Origin: Pirellula sp. | GTDB taxonomy: Bacteria > Planctomycetota > Planctomycetia > Pirellulales > PNKZ01 | Direction: 5' to 3' | DNA length: 64,000 bases | Assembly (NCBI GenBank): GCA_013822735.1 | Contig: PNKZ01000005.1 | Coordinates: forward strand, 62,001 to 126,000 | In this document: piece by piece, positions 24,665-48,712 of the stretch | Numbering within the stretch: the stretch's first letter is position 1 | Layout: each line of letters begins with the position of its first letter | Position numbers and translations under genes: made by a program | Notes under the pieces: model-generated | What the model was told of the DNA's origin: nothing | The model's database searches: none | Seen by the model: only the letters and a program-made list of their open reading frames with translations

Positions 24665-24782
24665 AACGGGCAAACTCCCAGGGGGCGACGAGCGTGAATA
24701 GGTGCGGCCGGCGCTACTTTAAGCCGCCGCGCCGCCCCCACGCAAGCATTTGCGGGAACGCCGATATGTGCCGCATGTTTTC

Positions 24783-25017
24783 TGTAGGGAACGCCCTCCG
24801 TGGCGTTCCATCTGGGGCGAGCGTCGAGCCGTCAGGCCGACGTGTCTGCGGAATGATCAATGACCAAGCACCAAATTCCAAACAAATATAAACGACCGAA
24901 TGACCCGATCGCGCCACAGCGCACATTGGAATTTCGGTCATTGGTCCTTGTTTGGAATTTGGTGCTTGGTGCTCGGAATTTTCGCCGAACGGAACGCCAC
25001 GGCGGACGTTCCCTACA
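24783..25017. repeat. Nested inverted repeats (families C and D) between sulfatase and nrdB
   Basis: The 366-base gap 24665-25030 contains an outer pair, 24783-24809 (tgtagggaacgccctccgtg...) and its inverted copy 24991-25017, and an inner pair, 24864-24886 (ccaagcaccaaattccaaac...) and its inverted copy 24948-24969. The outer element recurs at 29215-29291 and the inner one at 29726-29748 and 30244-30266. No gene is visible inside. Confidence 0.8.
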
Positions 25018-25030
25018 GCACGCGCCGTCC

Positions 25031-29150: not shown

Positions 29151-29214
29151 GCGTGCGCGCAGAGACCGGCCGGCCGCGGGATGCCCGTCAACATGGTCCT
29201 GTCGAATCAAAGAC

Positions 29215-29291
29215 TGTAGGGAACGCCCTCTGTGGCGTTCCGCTGATCAACCATCGACGCGAACGGAACGCCACGGAGGGCGTTCCCTACA
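29215..29291. repeat. Long hairpin (family C inverted pair) in the nrdA leader
   Basis: 29215-29241 and 29265-29291 are inverted copies of a 27-base element (tgtagggaacgccctctgtg...), separated by 23 bases. Transcribed with nrdA, it would form a stem of about 27 bp between the riboswitch and the start codon. Confidence 0.8.
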
Positions 29292-29442
29292 GAGCTAAGT
29301 TAAGGGCGCAACAACAGACGCAATCCGTGCGCTTCGGCGATGAAAAGAAGAACGGTGACCGCCCGGCCCTAGCGACTTCAATGTCGCGCGGTCCGCTGCG
29401 GAGTCGAGCGTTTCGCCCTCGCAAAACGTTCGGCTAGGTCCG

Positions 29443-29641
29443 GTACTGGTAGGTCTTCTGACTCGCGAACTTATCGTGTCGCAGCCTTCTCACTCAGGGC
29501 GCCGCGTGGCCGCGGCGGCTAAGCAATGGCGGTAGAAAACAACACGATCGACGTTCGCATACAGCGGCGGGGCCGTCCCGGAATCGCACCGGGTTCCCTG
29601 TTTGCCGAGCCACAACATCTTGTGTCCTCGGCCACCAGTAC
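29443..29641 (-). promoter_or_regulatory. Cobalamin riboswitch upstream of nrdA
   Basis: Read on the minus strand, the aptamer is closed by P1 GTACTGGT (complement of 29634-29641) with ACCAGTAC (complement of 29443-29450), a perfect 8-bp pair. The conserved core reads AACAGGGAACCCGGTGCGAT, followed by TCCGGGACGGCCCCGCCGCT, and near the 3' end GAGTCAGAAGACCTACC; these are the signature segments of the adenosylcobalamin class. It precedes nrdA by about 290 bases on the same strand. Known cobalamin riboswitches on B12-independent isoenzymes (Streptomyces nrdAB, some metE genes) turn the gene off when B12 is present. Confidence 0.93.
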
Positions 29642-29725
29642 TACATGGGGCGGTATGCTAGCGGACCATGAGCGACTTGTCAAATGTTAGTCAAAGCTTG
29701 CGGAAACTCGCTTAAATTCCAAGGA

Positions 29726-29748
29726 CCAAGCACCAAATTCCAAACAAA
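29726..29748. repeat. Family D repeat, left flank of the SmpA-like gene
   Basis: A 23-base sequence starting CCAAGCACCAAATTCC; its exact inverted copy is at 30244-30266 and a direct copy at 24864-24886. Confidence 0.85.
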
Positions 29749-29839
29749 CTCAAATGATCAAACTGCTCCGCAGCGGGTATCGAAATCTCTTTCATCGATC
29801 ATTACTTCGGCAGCCCCGCGCGGGCCGCGAAGCTCGACT

Positions 29840-30160
29840 TCACCATACGAATGGCGGTTCATGGTAGCGCGCCTCAACCACTCTTCCCTCGTTAAACCGC
29901 ACACGAATTTCCAGTAGTTCCCATCCGATCCAATAGTCGTAGCGGTGAACCCACACATGTTCTTGAGTTCCGTCCGGCCATTTTGCTTCTGTGGTGCTCG
30001 GGTTTCCCAAGAGCGCTTCGACTTCCTGTTGAGTCATGCCGAAGTGAAGCCGCTGAAAATTTACAAAAGAAAATCGGCCAAACTGATAGTGTCGTTGCGC
30101 GCCAACAAGAATCAGTGCTGTAGTAATGCAAATTGCGATGACTAAAACGAATCGCTTCAT
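29840..30160 (-). CDS. Small SmpA/OmlA-like membrane-anchored protein
   Basis: A 106-residue protein, ATG 30160. The N-terminus (MKRFVLVIAICITTALILVGAQ) is a signal peptide or anchor without a lipobox. The remaining part has HFGMTQQEVEALLGNPSTTEA, the helix-turn signature of the SmpA/OmlA (BamE-like) fold, followed by beta-strand-like HVWVHRYDYWIGWELLEIRVRFNEGRVVEARY. The function is unknown; BamE identity is not implied. The gene is flanked by perfect 23-bp inverted repeats (29726-29748 and 30244-30266), and its base composition is clearly lower in GC than its neighbours, which suggests separate arrival. Confidence 0.7.
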   Translation of the reverse strand: MKRFVLVIAICITTALILVGAQRHYQFGRFSFVNFQRLHFGMTQQEVEALLGNPSTTEAKWPDGTQEHVWVHRYDYWIGWELLEIRVRFNEGRVVEARYHEPPFVW

Positions 30161-30243
30161 GTTTACTCTCTGGAAGCGCTTGAGAAGAGACGTTCAATTG
30201 GCGCCGTCTTGTGATTCCGTCATTCGCACATTGGGGCTTCGCA

Positions 30244-30266
30244 TTTGTTTGGAATTTGGTGCTTGG
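30244..30266. repeat. Family D repeat, right flank of the SmpA-like gene (inverted)
   Basis: Exact reverse complement of 29726-29748. Together they enclose 29749-30243, which holds just the one small gene. Confidence 0.85.
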
Positions 30267-30283
30267 CCCATTGGTCATTCCGC

Positions 30284-34977: not shown

Positions 34978-35018
34978 GATTGCAAAATGAGAATTGCAAA
35001 TTGCAAGTTGCAAATTGT
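34978..35018. repeat. 'gattgcaaaatgagaattgc' repeat (family F) at the start of the DUF1549 gene
   Basis: Matches 37975-38015 in 38 of the first 40 positions and 38443-38483 in the inverted sense. The start codon (34987) and the first codons of the DUF1549/DUF1553 gene are inside it. Confidence 0.9.
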
Positions 35019-37953
35019 GGGCGCCGCCGCGGTGCAGTTGCTTGTCGGCGTGTGGACGTTGGCGGACGCCGAAGAACCGGCGAAGGAACAGCCGCCGTCG
35101 GCCGCGGCCGCGAAAGTGCCCACGGCCGGTGAAGAGCTGTTCACAAGGACCGTCGGTCCCCTCTTGCGCGATAAATGTGCGCAATGCCATGGAGCGGCCG
35201 ACTTGCAAGAAGGAGGGCTGGACGTCACGAGCCGCGCCGCGCTTTTGCGCGGCGGCATGGGCGAGCGCAAGACGTTGGTGCCCCGCAAGCCGGAAGAGAG
35301 CTTGCTCTACATCGTGGCGACGCGCGAAGACCCTGACTTGGCAATGCCGCCGGATGAGAACGAGGCGCTGGCGAAAGACGAGATCGACGCGCTCCGCGCG
35401 TGGATCGCGGCCGGCGCCCCGTGGGTCGAGAGCGCGCCTGCGGCGGCCGCCGTGGTTGCCGCACCGTCGGCTTGGGACTTGTCGCACGCTTCCGACGGCG
35501 TGATGCTGCCGACGAGCGGCGGCTTGTCGCCGAGCTGGACCACCCGCAAATACGAGGCTGCCGACGTGTGGGCCTTTCTGCCGGTGCAGCGCTACGCGGT
35601 TCCCAAGCGCACCGATGCCGCCGGGAAACAGCTCCACCCGATCGATGCATTTCTCCGCGAGAAGCTGGCCGCGAAAGAGCTGGAGCCCGCTCCTCCCGCG
35701 CCGCCCGGCGAATGGCTGCGCCGGGCCTCGTTCGACTTGACCGGCCTGCCGCCGACGCCGAGCGAGGTGGCGGCGTTCGTCTCCCAGTCTGCGGCGAAAG
35801 AAGGAGAGACGAGGAGACAAGGAGAGGGGGAGAAAGAGCGAGCGGCGTACAACGAAGCCATCGACCGTCTGCTCGCCTCGCCGCACTATGGCGAACAAAT
35901 GGCGCGGCACTGGCTCGACGTCGCGCGCTACGCCGACACGAGCGGCTTTTCGAACGACTACGAACGGCCGCACGCGTGGCGGTATCGCGACTACGTGGTC
36001 CGCAGCTTCAACGCCGATAAGCCGTACGACCGGTTCGTGCTGGAGCAGATCGCGGGCGACGAGCTCGATGTCGACGATCCGGAGTTGCAGATCGCCGTCG
36101 GCTTCTTGCGGATGGGCCCTTGGGAACATACGGGCATGAGCGTGGCCGCCGAAACGCGGCAGGCGTTTCTCGACGATGTGACCAACTCCGTCGGCGTGAC
36201 GTTTCTCGGGCAAGGGCTGCGCTGCGCGCGGTGCCACGATCACAAGTTCGACCCGATCCCGACGCGCGACTACTACCGCATTCAGGCCTGTTTCGCGCCG
36301 ACGCAATTTATCGATCGGCCGGTGCCGTTTTTGGCCGGGGAGAATGTGAAGTCGCTGGAGCACACGAAGCCGCAGACCGAGGCACGGCTGGCGGATGCGC
36401 AAGCCAAGTTGGCGGAGTTTAAAGCCAAGAGCGATGCGGCAGTCGCCGCTTGGCTAAAAGAAAACGGATATGCCTCGCTCGACGATGCGCCGCCGAGCAA
36501 ACGGCCGCCGCAACGCTTCTATGGTTTGAGTCCGCAAGAGATGAGCCTATTCAAGGTCAATCAAAAGCGCGAAGCGTACTTTAAGTTGGAGATGCGCCGT
36601 TACACGCCTGAAGCGCTCACGGTATACGACGGACCGAACGTGCTCTTCGACATGCAAACCGGTCGGCCGCAAAATACGGGTATGAAGCAGCAGGGAGTGA
36701 AAAAGGGGGCGGCGAAGCAATCGCAGGAGACGACTGCGGGAAAGAAAGTGCCGGCCACGTTTACGGCAAATGTCGCCCAGCCGGTGTTCATTCTCGCGGG
36801 GGGCTCGTTGGCGTCGCCCGGCGATCGCGTGACGCCCGGCGTATTGAGCGCTTGCTTCCAATCGAGCGACGTGCATCAAGCGACGGCCTGGAACACGGTG
36901 CCGCAGGTGATGAACGGTCGCCGGCTGGCGCTGGCCCGGTGGATTGCGAGCGAGCAGAATCCGCTGACCGCGCGGGTGATGGTGAACCGGATTTGGCAGA
37001 TGCACTTCGGGCGAGGGCTCGTCGCCACGCCGAACAATTTCGGCAGGATGGGCTCGAAGCCGACGCATCCGGAGCTGCTCGATTACTTGGCGGTGTGGTT
37101 CATGGAGCACGATTGGTCGGTGAAGAAGCTGCATCGGCTGATCATGACGTCGGCCGCGTATCGACAGGCGAGCAGCCATCCGCAGTTTGCGAAGGTGAAC
37201 GAACTCGACGCCAAGAACGAGTTGCTGGCGTACTTCCCCGCGCGACGTTTGTCGGCCGAGGAACTGCGCGACACGATGCTCCTAGCGACGGGCGAGCTGA
37301 ACGCGACGGTCGGCGGCCCTCCCGTGTTTCCGGAGATCAATTGGGAAACGGCCTTGCAGCCGCGGCACATCATGGGCTCAGTCGCGCCGGTCTATCAGCC
37401 GTCGCAAACGCCCGCCGAGCGTCATCGCCGGACGCTGTATGCGTTTCAATGCCGCACGCTGGGTGACCCGATGCTCGAGGTGTTCAACCGCCCGACGAGC
37501 GATCTTTCGTGCGAGCGGCGCGATGCGACGACGGTCACCCCGCAAGTGTTCGCGCTCTTCAACGGCCAGTCGGCCCACGATCGAGCGTTGGCGCTCGCGG
37601 CCCGCCTCGGCAAGGAGCACAAACAATTCGACGCCAAACTCGACGCGGCTTACGCGCTGCTCTACGGCCGTTCGCCGACCGACGCCGAGCGCTCGGCGGC
37701 ACGCGAGCACATGACGAAGATGACCGAGCACCACAAGAAGCAATCGCCGCAGCCGACTGCCCCGCCGCAGGTCGTCCGTCGCGAGATGGTGGAAGAACTG
37801 ACGGGCGAGCCGGTCTTCTGGGAAGAAAAGCTCGACGGCATGGCGACGTTCGTGTCGGACCTGAAGCCGTGGCAAGTGGATGCGGAAACGAGGGCCTGGG
37901 GAGAGCTTTGCTTGGTGCTGTTGAACTCGAATGAATTTGTTTATGTACGGTGA
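34987..37953 (+). CDS. DUF1549/DUF1553 protein with planctomycete-type cytochrome domain
   Basis: A 988-residue exported protein of the planctomycete PSCyt1-PSCyt2-PSD1 type. A signal-like N-terminus (MRIANCKLQIVGAAAVQLLVGVWTLADAE) is followed by a cytochrome c-like domain with CAQCHG near residue 63 and LAMPPDE as distal part. DUF1549 (PSCyt2) includes WLRRASFDLTGLPPTPSEVAAF, HWLDVARYADTSGFSNDYERPHAWRYRDYV and RCARCHDHKFDPIPTRDYY, with a second CxxCH. DUF1553 (PSD1) includes RLALARWIASEQNPLTARVMVNRIWQMHFGRGLVATPNNFG and RRTLYAFQC, ending LCLVLLNSNEFVYVR. The function of these very abundant planctomycete proteins is unknown; most act with a DUF1501 partner, found here one gene further on. Confidence 0.9.
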   Translation: MRIANCKLQIVGAAAVQLLVGVWTLADAEEPAKEQPPSAAAAKVPTAGEELFTRTVGPLLRDKCAQCHGAADLQEGGLDVTSRAALLRGGMGERKTLVPRKPEESLLYIVATREDPDLAMPPDENEALAKDEIDALRAWIAAGAPWVESAPAAAAVVAAPSAWDLSHASDGVMLPTSGGLSPSWTTRKYEAADVWAFLPVQRYAVPKRTDAAGKQLHPIDAFLREKLAAKELEPAPPAPPGEWLRRASFDLTGLPPTPSEVAAFVSQSAAKEGETRRQGEGEKERAAYNEAIDRLLASPHYGEQMARHWLDVARYADTSGFSNDYERPHAWRYRDYVVRSFNADKPYDRFVLEQIAGDELDVDDPELQIAVGFLRMGPWEHTGMSVAAETRQAFLDDVTNSVGVTFLGQGLRCARCHDHKFDPIPTRDYYRIQACFAPTQFIDRPVPFLAGENVKSLEHTKPQTEARLADAQAKLAEFKAKSDAAVAAWLKENGYASLDDAPPSKRPPQRFYGLSPQEMSLFKVNQKREAYFKLEMRRYTPEALTVYDGPNVLFDMQTGRPQNTGMKQQGVKKGAAKQSQETTAGKKVPATFTANVAQPVFILAGGSLASPGDRVTPGVLSACFQSSDVHQATAWNTVPQVMNGRRLALARWIASEQNPLTARVMVNRIWQMHFGRGLVATPNNFGRMGSKPTHPELLDYLAVWFMEHDWSVKKLHRLIMTSAAYRQASSHPQFAKVNELDAKNELLAYFPARRLSAEELRDTMLLATGELNATVGGPPVFPEINWETALQPRHIMGSVAPVYQPSQTPAERHRRTLYAFQCRTLGDPMLEVFNRPTSDLSCERRDATTVTPQVFALFNGQSAHDRALALAARLGKEHKQFDAKLDAAYALLYGRSPTDAERSAAREHMTKMTEHHKKQSPQPTAPPQVVRREMVEELTGEPVFWEEKLDGMATFVSDLKPWQVDAETRAWGELCLVLLNSNEFVYVR

Positions 37954-37974: not shown

Positions 37975-38015
37975 GATTGCAAAATGAGAATTGCAAATCG
38001 CAAATTGCAAATTGG
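37975..38015. repeat. 41-bp inverted repeat, left end of the four-helix-bundle unit (family F)
   Basis: Begins GATTGCAAAATGAGAATTGC and ends GCAAATTGG. It agrees in 38 of 41 positions with the reverse complement of 38443-38483. Confidence 0.92.
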
Positions 38016-38030
38016 CCTGTCGGAGTCGTT

Positions 38031-38429
38031 ATGAGTAAAGGTGAGGAACGCCCAACGCCCGCCGACGAGCTTTCCGAGCGCATCTTAGATTGCGCGGCGC
38101 GTATTGGAAAACTTGTTGATGCGATACCGGATACACGCTTGGGTAGACATATCGCCGGGCAGATCGTGCGTTGCGGAACTTCGCCGGTGGCCAACTACGA
38201 AGAAGCCCGCAGCGCCGAAAGTCGCCGCGATTTTGTACACAAGCTCGGAATTTGTTTGAAGGAATTACGCGAATCTCGAGGTTGGATTCGCTTGCTGATC
38301 CGCACGGAGTCGTTGTCGATCAAGAAGCTGCAGCCTCTCCTTGATGAATGCGAGCAACTCATGAAGATTATCGGCCGCTCGATCGTTACCGCGAAACGCG
38401 CGGGACTAAAAGAAAAGCCCAATCGTTAG
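38031..38429 (+). CDS. Four-helix-bundle protein (S23 rRNA intervening-sequence type)
   Basis: A 132-residue all-helical protein. ATG 38031 (MSKGEERPTPADELSERILD) has CGGAG 6 bases upstream. The family signatures are visible: IPDTRLGRHIAGQIVRCGTSPVANYEEARSAESRRDFVHKLGICLKELRESRGWIRLLI and LLDECEQLMKIIGRSI. It belongs to the S23/IVP family, first seen inside 23S rRNA intervening sequences and structurally related to Avd of diversity-generating retroelements. Here it is not in rRNA: it interrupts the DUF1549 to DUF1501 gene pair and is enclosed by 41-bp inverted repeats 15 bases before the start and 13 bases after the stop. The molecular role is unknown; nucleic-acid binding is suggested for some relatives. 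Confidence 0.88.
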   Translation: MSKGEERPTPADELSERILDCAARIGKLVDAIPDTRLGRHIAGQIVRCGTSPVANYEEARSAESRRDFVHKLGICLKELRESRGWIRLLIRTESLSIKKLQPLLDECEQLMKIIGRSIVTAKRAGLKEKPNR

Positions 38430-38442
38430 CGTCCGGCTCCCT

Positions 38443-38483
38443 CCAATTTGCAATTTGCATTTTGCAATTCTCAATTTGCAATC
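38443..38483. repeat. 41-bp inverted repeat, right end of the four-helix-bundle unit (family F)
   Basis: Begins CCAATTTGCAATTTGC and ends TTTGCAATC. Inverted copy of 37975-38015 with three differences. Confidence 0.92.
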
Positions 38484-48621: not shown

Positions 48622-48712
48622 AGTGGTGAGTGGCGAGTGATGGGTGGTGAGCAAAGTACAGCCGACGGCTAGTGCATGTTTCTCGCCACTCACCACTCAT
48701 CACTCGCCACCA
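48622..48712. repeat. 'gtggtgagtggcgagtg' inverted repeat
   Basis: About 48622-48653 (agtggtgagtggcgagtgat...) and 48678-48710 (ctcgccactcaccactcatc...) are roughly inverted copies that would form a long hairpin between korB and the second CBS gene. Related sequence occurs at 16157-16182 and inside nagA (33694-33722). Confidence 0.65.

Follow-up and report, generated by a model that had tools for sequence, protein, structure and literature searches.

An S23-Type Four-Helix-Bundle Gene Enclosed by Heptad Inverted Repeats: A Candidate Minimal Mobile Element Outside rRNA

Introduction

The closest described systems to the unit analysed here are the intervening sequences (IVS) of 23S rRNA that encode S23 proteins, such as that of Coxiella burnetii, which carry a terminal inverted repeat (a 28-bp stem in Coxiella; PMC4990558). 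IVS are seated in the tips of rRNA helices, occur sporadically, and have been suspected of being selfish or mobile (PMC4990558). A second system is formed by the REP/REPIN repeats, which persist where the cognate RAYT gene has been lost (PMC3686654). Heptamer repeats (STRR) have also long been known. The GGGAATC arrays of Xanthomonas form 70–75 convergent inverted pairs, and for heptamers no general association with known proteins or mobile elements was found (PMC4692102); an unidentified repeat-binding protein has been proposed for them (PMC4679880).

The S23 family is likewise known. Our search of the open-access literature found no publication linking S23 genes with heptamer repeats; most subscription journals lay outside its scope, so an earlier description is possible. 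Here, we describe an S23 gene within long heptad inverted repeats and compare it with S23 loci from other phyla.

Results

A single S23 gene enclosed by 41-bp heptad arms

The window, by which we mean the whole 64-kb stretch (64,000 nucleotides) of Pirellula sp. DNA analysed here, contains the following features around the unit of interest (G numbers denote genomes).

37975..38015, plus strand: left arm, 41 bp of GCAAATT-type heptad iterations; 38/41 against the right arm; 7-bp self-match 0.71
38031..38429, plus strand: S23-type four-helix-bundle gene, 132 aa; PF05635 and TIGR02436; four-helix model; dN/dS 0.06 against G005
38443..38483, minus strand: right arm, an inverted copy of the left arm
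37975..38483, no strand: whole unit, proposed mobile element, 509 bp; G004 and G003 lack it between these genes, G005 has it
34978..35018, plus strand: solitary arm, 38/41; overlaps the start of the DUF1549 ORF
34987..37953, plus strand: DUF1549/DUF1553 (PSCyt2/PSD1) gene, left neighbour; PF07583, PF07587
38506..39924, plus strand: DUF1501 gene, right neighbour; PF07394, 2.6e-144; start codon chosen by us

The preliminary description of this DNA had reported 41-bp inverted arms, a lone ORF between them, a solitary third copy of the repeat, no transposase, and a DUF1549/DUF1553-DUF1501 pair split by the unit, and our analysis bore it out on each count. The left arm and the reverse-complemented right arm agree at 38 of 41 positions, and the two form the top-scoring inverted pair in the 64 kb (seed-based scan, spacing ≤700 bp). 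Both are imperfect iterations of the 7-bp unit GCAAATT, and they pair with each other in the predicted RNA fold of the unit (z −5.7). Of the 427 bases separating the arms, all but 15 and 13 at the two ends belong to the S23 ORF, and no other gene is present; neither a reverse transcriptase nor template/variable repeats were found there, and an Rfam scan of the window detected no rRNA. The solitary arm agrees with the two arms of the unit at 38/41 and 37/41 positions and includes the ATG start codon (34987) of the DUF1549 ORF, and no other stretch of the window matches the 41-bp arm at more than 27 positions.

Other hairpins lie elsewhere in the window. Those at 24782–25018 are nested, with an outer CTGTAGGGAACGCCCTCCGTGGCGTTCC, which is also found alone at 29214–29292, and an inner heptad hairpin, ACCAAGCACCAAATTCCAA, at 24863–24885/24948–24970. 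ACCAAGC-type arms like those at 24782–25018 recur 495 bp apart at 29723–30269, where they surround a BamE-like ORF (29840–30160, minus strand, 106 aa) instead of an S23 gene; heptad arms around another ORF count against the reading of S23 units as mobile elements given below. A further short hairpin, with a loop of 37 and arms of 7-bp periodicity (GTGGCGAGTGATGGGTGGTGAG), occupies 48630–48710, and a cobalamin riboswitch (Rfam RF00174, 88 bits) lies at 29431–29654 on the minus strand.

The enclosed gene encodes an ordinary S23 family member

Nothing sets the window gene apart from other S23 family members: its product matches PF05635 with an E-value of 2.3e-14 (53.9 bits, curated cut-off 33.8) and TIGR02436, "four helix bundle protein," with 2.1e-22 (79.4 bits, cut-off 24). 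The AlphaFold model has four helices (pLDDT 93) and resembles 2RLD (target TM 0.83–0.91) and 2GSC (0.85–0.86). The similarity to Avd (4DWL, 8UB7; Foldseek probability 1.00, target TM 0.80–0.84) is weaker by E-value (0.04), and sequence identity between S23 and Avd is 17–18%. The kinship with Avd proposed earlier is supported by this shared fold, together with a sub-threshold match of a paralogue to the bAvd profile.

The dN/dS ratio of the window gene against its G005 counterpart is 0.06, with dS near saturation, and by this measure the protein is under purifying selection. Stop codons occur in several S23 relatives, which fits an element that degenerates once it has inserted.

Inverted heptad repeats surround S23 genes across phyla

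We collected 80 loci of S23 relatives from Planctomycetota, Chloroflexota, Verrucomicrobiota, Acidobacteriota, Bacteroidota, Cyanobacteriota, Nitrospinota, and other groups, and scored 79 of them by the best alignment of their left 200 bp with their right 200 bp, the latter reverse-complemented. As shown by these scores, 87% of the 79 loci have a flanking inverted repeat of at least 30, and 75% one of at least 34. Random windows of the same loci reached 30 in 0.4% and 34 in none (n = 238), and other ORFs in these loci did so in 1.0% and 0.6%, respectively (n = 492). These two controls ruled out chance flanking, and the enclosure frequency, whose measurement had been proposed as a check, is far above chance. 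The second, canonical PF05635 class likewise carries arms in 21 of 25 cases.

The arms are periodic. Among 106 units chosen for having arms, mean self-match was 0.68 at lags 7 and 14 and 0.18–0.37 at other lags; the best lag was 7 in 89 units and 8 in 14. In most loci the purine-rich strand is that of the left arm, but this fails in cyanobacteria and was dropped as a universal rule.

Arm sequence correlates with S23 protein sequence

Close relatives share the arm type of the window unit. Where arms were readable over their full length, GCAAATT or GCAAAAT arms flank the S23 genes of G005 (87% identity to the window protein), G060 (70%), G147 (65%), G178 (61%), and G079 (59%), and shorter arms of the same kind flank that of G078 (58%), where a contig end cuts the locus; relatives less than 45% identical have other repeat units. 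The more alike two proteins are, the more alike are the k-mers of their arms (106 loci; Mantel rho 0.43, p≤0.001, with none of 1,000 permutations above 0.19), although co-inheritance of gene and arms as a single cassette would also yield such a correlation, which shows linkage and is compatible with specificity. Dispersed repeats point the same way: GAAGGATGAAGGATGA occurs up to 721 times per genome (the maximum being that of Herpetosiphon giganteus) and is more frequent in genomes with GGATGA in S23 flanks (Mann-Whitney p = 7e-4), a test blurred by the several S23 genes that a genome often has. The Nostoc STRR unit GGGGATT is identical to the heptad in the arms of the Planktothrix S23 unit.

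The data as a whole strongly suggest that the hairpin is bound by its own S23 protein, which would drive the spreading. The earlier proposal of S23 as a candidate trans-acting factor gains from the co-specificity of protein and repeat and from purifying selection.

Gene-less hairpins are dispersed in the host genome

We searched the host genome (G000; 6.88-Mb assembly, 38 contigs) with a 15-mer of the window repeat, allowing at most one mismatch, and found 86 matches (44 and 42 on the two strands), compared to none for the reversed 15-mer. The matches group into about 33 units, mostly hairpins of ~90–120 bp with the ends GATTGCAA...TTGCAATC and a loop of ~25–40 bases; some arms are solitary. 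Among the host units examined, only the window unit has a gene between its arms, and neither a transposase in a unit nor a transposase-bearing parent with the same ends was found; S23 was the only gene between ATTGCAA arms. Neighbouring matches on opposite strands are always ordered left arm, then right arm (27∶0 in the host and 12∶0 in G005). Many of the hairpins lie close behind genes. Seven of 29 sit within another inverted repeat (score of at least 24), compared to 1.5% of genomic windows, and the outer repeats are also short-unit arrays, for example TTCACCACGGAGGCACGGAGAACACGGAG or AGTAGCT. We found no target-site duplications around the host hairpins, and no Rfam family matches them. A separate Rfam assignment in the host genome is an Acido-Lenti-1 sRNA (RF01687) at L151 11844–11889 (minus strand).

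The preliminary description had proposed asking whether the repeat clusters in genomes that encode this S23 subfamily, and within the family it does: the two genomes with a window-type S23 gene, the host and its sister genome G005, whose S23 unit is orthologous, have 86 and 68 matches, and five relatives without one have 4, 1, 0, 0, and 0. Farther away the picture is mixed: G122, G128, G103, G151, and G194 have many ATTGCAA repeats, and a close S23 gene of the window subfamily was not found in them. Their repeats could have outlived a lost cognate gene, by analogy with REPINs; incomplete assemblies or a faulty model could also be the cause. Conversely, G147 has the S23 gene unit, and dispersed copies were not found there, and in the repeat-rich genomes G060 and G178 the loci examined are one-armed arrays instead of close hairpins.

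Empty sites in planctomycetes and on cyanobacterial plasmids

The DUF1549 stop and DUF1501 start lie close together, with no unit between them, in G004 (same genus) and G003 (same family), and in G005 the unit sits beside the same DUF1549-type gene with arms that match at 40/40 positions. As these empty sites are in diverged relatives, the exact ends of the window unit are putative. A gene-less hairpin of the host genome is missing from G005 between conserved flanks, the missing stretch being wider than the hairpin. The second S23 gene of the host (L164 2557–2916) is of the other class and has AGGGGTC arms; it also lies between DUF1549 and DUF1501, and its right arm extends into the DUF1501 N-terminus.

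Empty sites, which had been named as a check on mobility, were thus found at the DUF1549-DUF1501 pair and, with far higher flank identity, on cyanobacterial plasmids. Plasmid C of Trichormus variabilis ATCC 29413 carries a 428-bp S23 unit that is lacking from the corresponding site of six other plasmids (from Tolypothrix, Microchaete, Aulosira, and Nostoc) with flanks that are 97.5–97.9% identical. When two empty sites were aligned base by base, GTAAT was present once in the empty version (AAAGTTAAAAAGTAATTAAC) and on both sides of the filled one. Nostoc C052 plasmid pC052_D carries a 417-bp S23 unit that is missing from pC052_B, pC052_A, and pNsp_b of ATCC 53789, and Nostoc TCL26-01 has a 575-bp S23 unit between cas2 and cas1 that Nostoc UHCC 0870 lacks. 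The 5-bp GTAAT duplication is clear at the Trichormus site only, with a possible TTCT at another; one case resembles a replacement of ~240 bp more than a simple insertion, and two comparisons of lower identity gave no clean junction. A decayed S23 remnant, consisting of a left arm and gene start, lies on pC052_E of Nostoc C052 (L384 1230–1400), where Trichormus plasmid C has its complete unit. With many empty relatives, and with related S23 DNA (78–82%) at different sites, we infer that the direction was insertion rather than loss.

Some plasmid S23 genes lie within defence-type operons, in the orders DUF1156-S23-Swt1-HEPN, DrmD-S23-PglX, and cas2-S23-cas1 (L365–L369, L372, L373); for cas2-S23-cas1, at least, an empty counterpart exists. 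Our search for phage carriage of S23 units gave only two weak matches, and no S23 gene was found on Xanthomonas plasmids. Xcc0516 (PDB 2GSC), an S23-fold protein of solved structure, comes from Xanthomonas campestris, in which inverted GGGAATC heptad pairs abound (PMC4692102).

Discussion

Genome comparison shows S23 units to be enclosed by inverted arms, iterated, and specific to their subfamily; at intergenic sites that otherwise match, a unit is either there in full or wholly missing. The absence of whole units, arms included, from such sites argues for mobility of an element that resembles the 23S rRNA IVS but lies outside rRNA. We therefore favor, as the likely explanation with its mechanism included, a minimal mobile element of 509 bp, in which a long heptad inverted repeat carries an S23 gene in its loop.

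Avd is pentameric, and S23, which is likely a pentamer of the Avd kind, would recognize its own family's heptad hairpin, in the form of either RNA or single-stranded DNA. It would then bring the hairpin to a host activity, such as the replication fork, recombination, or a reverse transcriptase acting in trans, and this activity would copy the hairpin into a new site. Gene-less hairpins may represent non-autonomous copies that use S23 in trans, as REPINs use RAYT, and the 23S rRNA IVS would be a unit of the same kind caught in the tip of an rRNA helix. The nested host hairpins, together with the rRNA helix tips that IVS occupy (PMC4990558), point to hairpin loops as favored targets, yet visible nesting affects only 7/29 host hairpins. 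Against the model, S23 has no known catalytic residue or nuclease that would perform the copying step.

An unrelated enzyme, namely a Y1/RAYT transposase, another IS, or a reverse transcriptase, could instead move the hairpins in trans, with S23 as cargo or as an accessory chaperone. We consider this unlikely, although it would account for a unit that encodes no nuclease; the 5-bp direct repeat at one insertion resembles ordinary transposition, and Avd, which shares the S23 fold, assists a reverse transcriptase (PDB 8UB7 and others). Y1 transposase genes are present in 7/7 family genomes, yet these genomes include ones with and without the repeat, and paired ATTGCAA arms were found near Y1 genes in 0/11 loci examined, on which count RAYT in trans was rejected. 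S23 as simple cargo is disfavored because it would not explain why the arm sequence tracks the S23 protein.

It is improbable that S23 serves the cell as a regulator that binds RNA or DNA and controls itself through the hairpin around its gene, with the other heptad arrays as regulatory targets spread by slippage and selection. Purifying selection on S23 and the position of many hairpins close behind genes would suit such a role, and regulatory roles have been proposed for TAACTGA heptamers (PMC4679880), but whole units are present or absent at nearly identical sites, and the patchy distribution, decayed copies, and nesting in other hairpins are typical of mobile elements. That an S23 gene landed by chance between the arms of a pre-existing repeat is barely credible, even with the same arms lacking a gene at about 30 places and another heptad pair enclosing a non-S23 ORF, since 87% of S23 genes are enclosed over many phyla, each subfamily with its own unit, and S23 units come and go together with their arms.

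The reading of S23 units as mobile elements has observations against it as well: repeat-bearing genomes without a cognate S23 gene, the lack of dispersed copies in G147, the one-armed arrays of G060 and G178, the BamE-like ORF between heptad arms, a target duplication that is clear at one site only, and the plasmid case that resembles a replacement. For its widest form, in which S23 units are phylum-spanning, nuclease-less mobile elements whose pentameric S23 specifically recognizes a hairpin of 7-bp iterations and co-opts host replication, recombination, or reverse transcription to spread it, frequently into loops of further hairpins, which are the source of many STRR heptamers, and of which the rRNA IVS are a special case, we see the chances as even. 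S23 cassettes are probably a source of many unexplained 7-base repeats across bacterial genomes.

Two old puzzles, the suspected mobility of S23-encoding IVS and the dispersed heptamer repeats without a known source, appear to be one system. Its natural protein-repeat pairs, each of one subfamily and one heptad, could make a recognition code readable, and it presents a mobile element whose movement needs explaining without a resident transposase. "Four helix bundle protein," a frequent annotation without an assigned function, probably designates an element-borne protein. Caution is warranted for S23 genes inside defence or transfer operons, which may be insertions and not components.

Comparison with Known Systems

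S23 units resemble MITEs in being short and multicopy, with inverted repeats and apparently non-autonomous copies, but no transposase-bearing parent was found, and the gene-bearing copy holds S23 only. The protein has the same four-helix-bundle fold as Avd of diversity-generating retroelements; Avd, however, works with a reverse transcriptase in its own cassette, and the S23 unit holds none. The arms are tandem, imperfect 7-bp units that are dispersed like the STRR heptamers of cyanobacteria, Xanthomonas, and Beggiatoaceae, which as described (PMC4692102, PMC4679880) have no link to a known protein or mobile element.

The best functional analogy is the RAYT/REPIN system. As in REP/REPIN-RAYT (PMC3686654), a gene is flanked by inverted repeats that it putatively mobilises, gene-less doublets occur, gene and repeat are paired as cognates, and the repeats may outlive the gene. 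The REP-like trait of multicopy inverted doublets cognate to the gene is present here, with exceptions in G060, G178, and the repeat-bearing genomes without a close S23 gene. Unlike RAYT, the S23 unit encodes a four-helix bundle and no Y1/HUH nuclease, and its arms are 7-bp iterations and not GTAG-tagged palindromes.

The rRNA IVS differ in location, as the window and plasmid units lie between protein genes and fail the defining placement in 23S rRNA; such units have, in addition, heptad-array arms (a feature of this type), dispersed gene-less copies, and precise empty sites. The window unit lacks the transposase of IS, MITE, and RAYT systems and shares the core of the rRNA IVS: a unit of ~430 bp with an S23 ORF in the loop, a terminal inverted repeat, a sporadic distribution, and suspected mobility.
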